A model generated the notes under the pieces. It was not told where the DNA came from, searched no databases, and saw only the letters and a program-made list of their open reading frames with translations. Source: Zhaonella formicivorans (lineage in GTDB: Bacteria > Bacillota > DUOV01 > Zhaonellaceae). Taken from it: DNA of 64,000 nucleotides. The first letter of the stretch is position 1. Each line of letters starts with the position of its first letter. Positions 22,295 through 50,892 of this stretch are shown here, one piece after another. The translations under genes were made by a program, and so were the position numbers. The stretch is from NCBI RefSeq assembly GCF_004353525.1, contig NZ_CP085524.1, positions 2,142,142-2,206,141 of the forward strand. The letters run 5' to 3'.

Positions 22295-22525
22295 CTATCC
22301 CGAAAATGTAACCCTTTGTGTCCGCTGCTCCAAAGACTATCGCCAAGAGCGCTTCTCCTGTACATCGTTTGACTTCCAGCGGCACGCGCTGACGCAGCGT
22401 CCATGCCGCTCGGCCGCTTACAGTCAAACTCTTCACAGAGCGTTCTATAGCTTGTCATATGTCGCAGCTACACAATGGGTTACAATTTTTCATACTTATG
22501 ATGGTGTTGCAACAGCAGCATGGGG
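22295..22525 (+). repeat. Large structured intergenic element E (copy 3), nested
   Basis: 231 bp beginning CTATCCCGAAAATGTAACC and ending AACAGCAGCATGGGG. Outer arms pair (AAAATGTAACCC with GGGTTACAATTTT). Shares the inner GACTTCCAGCGGCACGCG module with copy 1. It appears inserted just after the CAGAC left end of the adjacent palindromic element. Confidence 0.65.
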
Positions 22526-22546
22526 TTCTGTCGACAAACTCTAATT

Positions 22547-22653
22547 AGCCCGCATGTATTATGGAGCGGGACTGGTTTCCCTCAGCCGTCGGCAGCGGAG
22601 CTGAAGGTCAACGGCGAGGGAGCTTGTCCAGAGCGAAATAATACATGCGGGCT
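22547..22653 (+). repeat. Palindromic element F (copy 1)
   Basis: 107 bp with terminal inverted repeats AGCCCGCATGTATTAT / ATAATACATGCGGGCT and the shared core GGAGCGGGACTGGTTTCC ... AGCTTGTCCAGAGCGAA. The core interior has diverged from copies 2-4. The left flank is split by element E copy 3. No duplicated hairpin is found on the right. Confidence 0.8.
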
Positions 22654-22706
22654 GGCTTTATCTTAAAACTGACGCCAGTTTCAAACCGGAGTGTATTTTG
22701 GTTTAC

Positions 22707-44600: not shown

Positions 44601-44625
44601 AAAATCCAGGAACAACTCCTGGATT
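44601..44625 (-). repeat. Left direct repeat: hpf terminator hairpin
   Basis: AAAATCCAGG...CCTGGATT, 25 bp, identical to 44765-44789. On the minus strand it is followed by TTTTAATTTTTTT, so this copy keeps the T-tract of the intrinsic terminator. Confidence 0.85.
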
Positions 44626-44764
44626 CAGACCGTCAACAACTATTATCAGCCAGCATGTATTATGGAGCGGGACTGGTTTCCCCAGCCGTCGGCAGCTATG
44701 CTGCCGTTAACGGCGTAGGAGCTTGTCCAGAGCGAAATAATACATGCTGGCTTAGTCTACACGC
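44626..44764 (+). mobile_element. Terminator-associated palindromic element F (copy 2)
   Basis: 139 bp between exact 25-bp direct repeats of the hpf terminator hairpin. Ends are CAGACCGTCAACAACTATTA and GGCTTAGTCTACACGC; the palindromic core 44648-44752 has terminal repeats AGCCAGCATGTATTAT / ATAATACATGCTGGCT. Too short to encode a transposase; probably a non-autonomous element. Confidence 0.75.
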
Positions 44765-44789
44765 AAAATCCAGGAACAACTCCTGGATT
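44765..44789 (-). terminator. hpf terminator, right copy of duplicated hairpin
   Basis: AAAATCCAGG...CCTGGATT; first hairpin met by hpf transcripts, followed on the minus strand by TTTT then the element. Confidence 0.8.
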
Positions 44790-44820: not shown

Positions 44821-45345
44821 TTAATATTCAGGCTCGATCAAACCATAGTTTCCGTCTTTCCGGCGGTAAACCACGTTGACCTGCTCAGTTTCCGCATTGG
44901 AAAAGACAAAAAAGCTATGCCCCAGTAGGTTCATTTGCATGATGGCTTCTTCCACGGGCATTGGCTTGATGGAGAAATGCTTTGTTTTTAAAATCTTGGG
45001 CTCCTCATAACCGTTAGCCGAATCATTCCCGGCCAGTTCTTTCAGGCTTTGGCTCCTGAGCTTTTTCGCGAGCTTTGTCTTATACTTCTCAATCTGCTTC
45101 TCCAGCTTATCTAAGACCAAATCGATAGAGGCGTACATGTCGCCCGTTTCTTCTTCACCCCTGAGGATGTAACCATTTAGCGGGATGGTTACTTCCACAA
45201 CATGCCTGTCTCTCTCCACTGTCAAAGTGACCTGGGCTTCGGTATCGGCTTCAAAATACTTATCAAGCCTCCCCAGTCGCTTTTCAACATGTTGTCGCAG
45301 AGCGTTGGTCATTTGGATGTTTTTACCTCGTACTGTGATTTTCAT
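44821..45345 (-). CDS. hpf: Ribosome hibernation promoting factor, long form
   Basis: 174 aa, long-HPF length. N-terminal beta-alpha ribosome-binding domain at 1-100 (MKITVRGKNIQMTNALRQHV), linker, and C-terminal dimerisation domain at about 118-174 (KHFSIKPMPVEEAIMQMNLLGHSFFVF given in part). Causes 100S ribosome dimers in resting cells. Start ATG with GGAGCGG. Two copies of a terminator hairpin follow because of an inserted element. Confidence 0.95.
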   Translation of the reverse strand: MKITVRGKNIQMTNALRQHVEKRLGRLDKYFEADTEAQVTLTVERDRHVVEVTIPLNGYILRGEEETGDMYASIDLVLDKLEKQIEKYKTKLAKKLRSQSLKELAGNDSANGYEEPKILKTKHFSIKPMPVEEAIMQMNLLGHSFFVFSNAETEQVNVVYRRKDGNYGLIEPEY

Positions 45346-45584: not shown

Positions 45585-45605
45585 AAAACCCCGGTATTAC
45601 CAGGG
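45585..45605 (-). repeat. Left direct repeat: cold-shock gene terminator hairpin
   Basis: AAAACCCCGGTATTACCAGG G-type 21-bp sequence, 20 of 21 identical to 45750-45770; adjoining element F copy 3. Confidence 0.8.
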
Positions 45606-45749
45606 TTGCAGACTGTCAACAAATTATTAACAGCCAGCATGTATTATGGAGCGGGACTGGTTTCCACAGCCGTCGGCAGCTATGCTGCCGTTAACGGCGT
45701 AGGAGCTTGTCCAGAGCGAAATAATACATGCTGGCTTTGTCTACAAGCT
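45606..45749 (+). mobile_element. Terminator-associated palindromic element F (copy 3)
   Basis: 144 bp; ends GCAGACTGTCAACAAATTAT and GGCTTTGTCTACAAGCT; palindromic core 45632-45736 almost identical to copy 2. Flanked by 21-bp direct repeats of the local terminator hairpin. The rest of the gap 45346-45584 shows only AT-rich sequence. Confidence 0.75.
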
Positions 45750-45770
45750 AAAACCCCGGTATTACCGGGG
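45750..45770 (-). terminator. Cold-shock gene terminator, right copy of hairpin
   Basis: CCCCGGTATTACCGGGG followed by TTTTAGC on the minus strand, 30 bp after the cold-shock gene. Confidence 0.8.
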
Positions 45771-45799
45771 CTGGCTGCTAAATCAAGTTAAATCAAGAT

Positions 45800-49527: not shown

Positions 49528-49578
49528 TACGAGGCTTGTCCAGAGCAAAATAATATATTCGAGCTTTGCGTACGAGCT
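49528..49578 (+). repeat. Remnant of element F (3' half)
   Basis: GAGGCTTGTCCAGAGCAAAA then TAATATATTCGAGCTTTGCG TACGAGC parallels the right half of element F. Degenerate, just upstream of comFC. Confidence 0.55.
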
Positions 49579-49660
49579 GATTTAAGTTTAATACAAAAAT
49601 TTCCATAAAAAAAGAGCATTTCAACTCGGAAAATATCAAACATTAGTATTGCACACTATT

Positions 49661-50711: not shown

Positions 50712-50729
50712 AAAGCGCGGTAGCCCCGC
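50712..50729 (-). terminator. Left direct repeat: terminator hairpin (element F copy 4)
   Basis: AAAGCGCGGTAGCCCCGC, identical to 50875-50892. On the minus strand it is followed by TTTTTTAATTG, serving the purine permease gene. Confidence 0.75.
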
Positions 50730-50874
50730 TTCCAGCTTGTAGACAAAGCCCGCATGTATTATTTCGCTCTGGACAAGCTCCTACGCCGTTACCGGCAGCA
50801 TAGCTGCCGACGGCTGGGGAAACCAGTCCCGCTCCATAATACATGCGGGCTGATAATAGTTTGCCGACGGTCTG
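50730..50874 (-). mobile_element. Terminator-associated palindromic element F (copy 4, reversed)
   Basis: 145 bp in the opposite orientation to copies 2-3; core 50747-50851 with AGCCCGCATGTATTAT / ATAATACATGCGGGCT ends, outer ends AGCTTGTAGACAAAGC and the complement of CAGACCGTC. Bracketed by 18-bp direct repeats of a terminator hairpin. Confidence 0.75.
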
Positions 50875-50892
50875 AAAGCGCGGTAGCCCCGC
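50875..50892 (-). repeat. Right direct repeat of terminator hairpin
   Basis: AAAGCGCGGTAGCCCCGC, perfect copy of 50712-50729; here the stem is extended to GCGCGG/CCGCGC. Confidence 0.75.

Follow-up and report, generated by a model that had tools for sequence, protein, structure and literature searches.

Most DDE transposases produce target duplications of a fixed length, which is set by the enzyme. Group IIC introns adjoin terminators and repetitive extragenic palindromes (REPs) are short intergenic palindromes, and to our knowledge neither the introns nor palindromes of the REP/BIME type (BIME, bacterial interspersed mosaic element) duplicate their target or possess the terminal repeats described below. 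IS1630, an insertion sequence (IS) described by Calcutt et al. in 1999, reportedly has duplicated repeats that apparently derive from terminators, and we know of no short palindromic derivative of it. Here we analyse a 139-bp element located between two copies of a hairpin 3' of the hpf gene, in a 64,000-nucleotide stretch of the Zhaonella formicivorans genome (NZ_CP085524.1, positions 2,142,142 to 2,206,141; hereafter the window). Very probably, it is a miniature inverted-repeat transposable element (MITE) that is mobilised in trans by a DDE transposase of the IS1182 family. This transposase would identify its target by shape, the target being an inverted repeat, perfect or nearly so, and in most cases the hairpin of an intrinsic terminator.

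IS1272 and TnSha1 use a transposase of the same IS1182 family and also target hairpins, many of which are terminators, with no sequence consensus (PMC5678879, PMC4923244). They differ from the subgroup analysed here in that they remove or cut the target hairpin instead of duplicating it. Furi et al. 2016 (PMC4923244) described that TnSha1/IS1272 targets terminators with partial deletion, and Wan et al. 2017 (PMC5678879) drew a hairpin-duplicating 'pathway b' as hypothetical and argued that IS1272 uses the other feet and replaces the hairpin. The path that we propose corresponds to the 'pathway b' drawn for IS1272 (PMC5678879). Duplications of 16, 23, 25 and 26 bp are given for IS1630 in Mycoplasma fermentans strain M64 (PMC3317919). 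IS1630 differs from the present element in its IS30-family transposase and its unrelated ends. Both the ends and the hairpin duplication are common to IS1182 elements of Bacillota with CAG-N2-TGT-N-GACAAA ends, such as one on an Enterococcus faecium plasmid (L297), although these are ~1.5-1.9 kb long as a rule and contain a transposase gene, which the element lacks.

Duplication of hairpins thus has a precedent in IS1630 (IS30 family), and IS1182 is already known to target palindromes. What is new, as far as the searchable open literature shows, is a hairpin-duplicating IS1182 subgroup, found in many species and with empty sites, together with short palindromic MITEs that exploit it; no report of hairpin duplication by IS1182 MITEs was found in that literature, with most subscription papers and ISfinder being outside it. 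The first-pass annotation of this DNA knew of no precedent for a short palindrome that duplicates a hairpin, a view that holds within this scope for IS1182 MITEs and has to be modified for hairpin targeting, for which IS1630 and IS1272 are precedents.

Hairpin repeats around the host elements

The element at hpf (MITE copy 2, class A) occupies 44626..44764 on the plus strand and consists of the left end CAGACCGTCAACAA, a palindromic interior and a decayed right end, GTCTACACGC. It lies between two 25-bp hairpin copies of the same sequence, AAAATCCAGGAACAACTCCTGGATT, at 44601..44625 and 44765..44789 (no strand is assigned to these or the following repeats), 3' of hpf, a minus-strand gene with S30AE domains at 44821-45345. 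The left copy retains an outer A-run, which is the U-tract of leftward transcripts. Two additional class A copies, both of 142 bp, are similarly placed. MITE copy 3 (45609..45750, plus strand), an insertion near a cold-shock gene, is bounded by hairpin copies at 45586..45608 and 45751..45773 that agree at 21 of 23 bases (AAACCCCGGTATTACC(A/G)GGG(T/C)TG), while MITE copy 4 (50733..50874, minus strand) is bounded by the hairpin-derived repeat AAAGCGCGGTAGCCCCGC at 50712..50729 and 50875..50892, with 18/18 bp the same and three extra bases between the low-coordinate copy and the element. These last two hairpins are unrelated to each other and unlike the one at hpf; the first-pass annotation had thus correctly described both the identical 25-bp copies at hpf and the different hairpins around the other two insertions. 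A 20-bp probe from the element found five matches in the window and none in 100 shuffles.

The host genome (G000) is a single contig of 3,314,304 bases, in which the element query yields 47 BLAST matches and the end motif CAGNNNGTNGACAAA 72 matches, as against 5 for the reversed control. Elements of four sizes (~141, 202, 266 and 408 bp) have their ends in common (CAGACCGTCGACAAA / CAGCTTGTAGACAAA) and differ in their interiors. Direct repeats of 16-31 bp with a mean identity of 0.93 flank 36 of the 42 host elements with both ends recognisable (25/27, 5/9, 4/4 and 2/2 in order of increasing size), compared with 6 of 1000 mispaired flanks. These repeats fold as hairpins, with a median symmetric pairing of 0.89 vs 0.50 in shuffled repeats, and an A-run 5' of the left copy or a T-run 3' of the right copy accompanies 31 of the 36, vs 0.11 of random window positions, which matches the expectation for intrinsic terminators. 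The genome-wide flank test suggested in the first-pass annotation therefore turned out in its favour, since most other copies duplicate a hairpin as well. Furthermore, the duplications distinguish the host elements from REP/BIME palindromes associated with RAYT (REP-associated tyrosine transposase) proteins, for which no target duplication is expected. Terminators as a landing place suggest how such elements reach tens of copies without breaking genes.

The host elements themselves fold into long hairpins. In an alignment of 27 class A copies, 93.7% of the paired cells are kept and 22 are double-change cells. As these copies share descent, supplied the consensus from which the structure was taken and were compared with no formal covariation control, no claim of selection on the palindrome is made. 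In another genome of the same family (G002), ~14 copies of the same interior palindrome (L192-L204) are framed by different outer ends that lack the IS1182-type end motif, and hairpin duplication was not seen by eye at these loci. The interior palindrome may be an independent repeat that became enclosed by IS ends.

IS1182 relatives and the origin of the duplication

The end motif is strongly enriched over the control in ~25 of 398 genomes of the phylum, by our reading of the result table. End pairs ~1.6 kb apart (L098, L099) enclose transposases that score 466 and 446 bits with the IS1182 family model (NCBIfam NF033551, an equivalog with a cut-off of 270 bits), and the full-length relatives display the DUF772 and DDE domains of the family (466 bits with NF033551; Pfam DUF772 and DDE_Tnp_1_6). 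The single-contig genome G038 harbours more than 30 copies of such an element with the ends CAGACTGTCGACAAA and CAGCTTGTAGACAAAGCC, the latter being equal to the right end of the host elements over 18 bases. Among its copies with both ends, 28 of 29 are situated between perfect hairpin repeats, 19-35 bp in length, which directly adjoin the ends. In 80 loci of named records, which include Desulforamulus, Cytobacillus, Bacillus, Romboutsia, Lysinibacillus, Clostridium and others, an end pair was present in 69, a repeat in 58 of these 69, and 55 of the 58 repeats are hairpins. MITEs with such ends, 254-342 bp in length, are also present in other genomes, and 27 of 29 are flanked by hairpin repeats, as is a 175-bp element family in G138. 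The combination of CAG-N2-TGT-N-GACAAA ends with paired hairpins may serve as a simple annotation signature.

For five G038 insertion sites, the two flanks were joined around a single hairpin copy and the resulting sequence was looked for in the congener G249. Four of them align continuously through a single hairpin, whereas the fifth aligns over its right flank and one hairpin and has a different left flank. Because the empty sites contain a single hairpin, the duplication is made by the insertion in the case of the full-length IS. For the 139-bp element, which could be compared with distant genera of its family only, the same origin is suggested by analogy with these relatives. The first-pass annotation had proposed that the flanking repeats come from the target, and this is upheld by the single hairpins at the IS empty sites as well as by an unrelated hairpin at every insertion; it had also named a related genome with two hairpins and no element as a reason to abandon the idea, and one hairpin, not two, was present at those sites. 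Replacement of the type described for IS1272 does not fit either, as the hairpin stands on both sides of the element and is single at empty sites.

The flanking hairpins might alternatively be part of the element, or result from recombination or from independent double terminators. A few IS1182 copies indeed have a different hairpin at each end (L135 in G038, L098 in G168), which possibly reflects recombination between copies. Nevertheless, this origin is barely credible, given that the perfect repeats abut the ends in nearly all G038 copies with a new hairpin each time, that the congener has one hairpin at the same sites, which refutes it for the full-length IS, and that the hairpin-repeat pattern tracks one transposase subgroup across many genera. 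As a separate observation, two IS1182 copies in G340 (L134) are arranged in the order hairpin-IS-hairpin-IS-hairpin, and here a duplicated hairpin seems to have been targeted again.

The host elements are short (~141-408 bp), present in 42 copies with both ends and devoid of a transposase gene, their terminal inverted repeats are common to the autonomous IS1182 elements of other genomes, and they possess target duplications like those of the autonomous IS, all of which is expected of MITEs. An autonomous partner in the same genome, which is usual for MITEs and not strictly required, was not found in the host. Accordingly, mobilisation by the IS1182 subgroup is deduced from the ends and the mode of insertion, and the lost mobiliser presumably belonged to this subgroup. 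Since the host yielded no IS1182 transposase that exceeds the cut-off, its MITEs look like orphans, in keeping with repeats that have decayed to 93% identity. The first-pass annotation had suggested a search for a transposase gene with matching ends, which failed in the host and led to IS1182 elements elsewhere. It had also assigned the recognition and duplication of hairpins to the palindrome itself; the duplication was confirmed, but the palindrome is probably not the actor, as it carries the ends of an IS1182-type IS.

Mobilisation by an IS30-family transposase, as for IS1630 of Mycoplasma fermentans, deserves attention as this IS30-type element is reported to target and duplicate variable-length inverted repeats (according to a title cited in PMC3317919) and IS30-family copies exist in the host. 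However, the host IS30 copies end in GGTTCATTGTAAAATTAAATGCAACA, unrelated to the ends of the element, and are flanked by AT-rich repeats, while the ends of the element are common to IS1182 elements, which makes an IS30-type mobiliser very improbable. The AT-rich direct repeats around these IS30 copies (L031-L035 in G000) measure ~11-19 bp, longer than usual for IS30.

Other candidates were examined and rejected. Some host transposases match the IS1182 model in part, but their ends are different (GAGC...GCTC) and their repeats short. IS1202 is known for long duplications, but the rve transposases detected in the host and in two relatives all lack matching ends, which argues against a mobiliser of the TnsB, IS481 or IS1202 type; the exact end-motif matches in these genomes lie, by position, within an ATPase gene. 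An Rfam search gave nothing relevant, and a 28-base probe found no match in viral contigs.

Target geometry and a possible mechanism

The geometry of the target was analysed on 95 distinct IS insertions with exact abutting repeats of 18-42 bp (median 25), a sizeable natural collection of targets that could reveal the recognition rule. Pairing within the repeats reaches 95-98% at positions 2-8 from the edge and 80% at the outermost position, and it declines outside the repeat (0.77, 0.68, 0.56 and on). In the reconstructed sites, the best hairpin dyad falls exactly on the repeat centre in 89 of the 95 insertions and is at most 1 bp off in 91, with ~4% expected. Repeat length, which is variable both in the host (16-31 bp) and for the IS, increases with hairpin extent (rho 0.38, P 2e-4), and the cuts are located at, or usually a few bp inside, an A/T-rich stem foot. 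The target repeats have no sequence in common except A-rich starts and T-rich ends. Hence, insertion appears to be directed by the shape of the DNA rather than by its sequence, and a duplication length that follows the target hairpin points in the same direction; the suggestion of the first-pass annotation that terminators are recognised by structure is well supported by the dyad-centred repeats and their lack of a common sequence.

In the mechanism that we propose, the target inverted repeat would first extrude as a hairpin or cruciform, which would bring both attack points close together at the cruciform base. The transposase would then join the two ends of the element to opposite strands at an equal distance from the dyad, at the stem foot or a few bp inside it, and gap repair would copy everything between the two cuts, which is the whole hairpin; the length of the repeat would follow the hairpin for this reason. 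Both hairpins would survive while the U-tract would not be copied, and the element would become transcribed between them.

Alternatively, the transposase might bind the palindrome as a B-form duplex, with a symmetric dimer contacting two half-sites, and an extruded hairpin would not be needed. Such a dimer would also produce dyad-centred cuts, and the repeats often start with A and finish with T. This possibility is nonetheless rather unlikely, because a fixed complex would give a fixed stagger and the repeats vary from 18 to 42 bp; furthermore, the targets are devoid of a common sequence and pairing extends up to the repeat edge. Returning to the extruded hairpin, we consider it reasonably likely that the large IS1182 subgroup with CAG-N2-TGT-N-GACAAA ends and its MITEs constitute a shape-directed transposition system. 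In this reading, the cuts are placed symmetrically on either side of an extruded hairpin's dyad, the duplication equals the hairpin, and the target, instead of the enzyme, determines the duplication length. Such a system would be the duplicating counterpart of IS1272 replacement, present in the searchable open literature only as a drawn possibility.

Several points weigh against shape-directed mobilisation by an IS1182-family transposase. A detectable flanking repeat was not found in 6 of the 42 host elements, and neither a protein search nor the family model revealed an IS1182 transposase above the family cut-off in the host. The match between repeat length and hairpin is only moderate (rho 0.38), with cuts often a few bp inside the stem foot, and IS1272, although it belongs to the same family, reportedly replaces hairpins without duplicating them (PMC5678879, PMC4923244). 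One copy each of ISCfr1 and ISSau3, which are IS1182-like with other ends, lacks a hairpin repeat; replacement and duplication may therefore belong to different IS1182 subgroups, although two non-duplicating copies are too few for proof. As both outcomes occur within one family, a comparison of subgroups could show what fixes the choice of strand at the stem foot. In the ISCfr1 copy on a Klebsiella plasmid (L298), a single palindrome supplies both flanks, CGGCCGATT / AATCGGCCG, with one arm on each side, as though this IS1182 member had split a hairpin instead of duplicating it.

Consequences for termination and additional copies

The first-pass annotation expected that termination stays intact on both sides of the element. 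Whereas the hairpins are indeed duplicated, the U-tract lies mostly outside the duplicated stretch: the 8 nt that follow the left copy contain a mean of 1.08 T, vs 4.31 for the right one. In the leftward hpf transcript, the near copy (44765-44789) is followed by four U and then by the element, and the far copy (44601-44625) keeps the long tract. The hairpin nearer the gene is cut off from its U-tract, and since this tract is not duplicated, termination presumably shifts to the far hairpin. Judged from the sequence, termination at hpf is probably kept but displaced across the element, which would become part of the 3' untranslated region.

Two remnants were also noted in the window. A decayed class A copy (22537..22653, plus strand), in which hairpin duplication was not seen, adjoins class C remains within 22400-22660, and like composites are present at G000:1073375 and 1288199. 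A fragment at 49530-49579 represents a class A right half whose partner half is missing. Finally, two class A copies elsewhere in the host genome, L018 (near G000:2135146) and L024 (near G000:1726552), carry an inner hairpin that is inverted relative to both ends, as though the palindrome had turned over within its outer arms.
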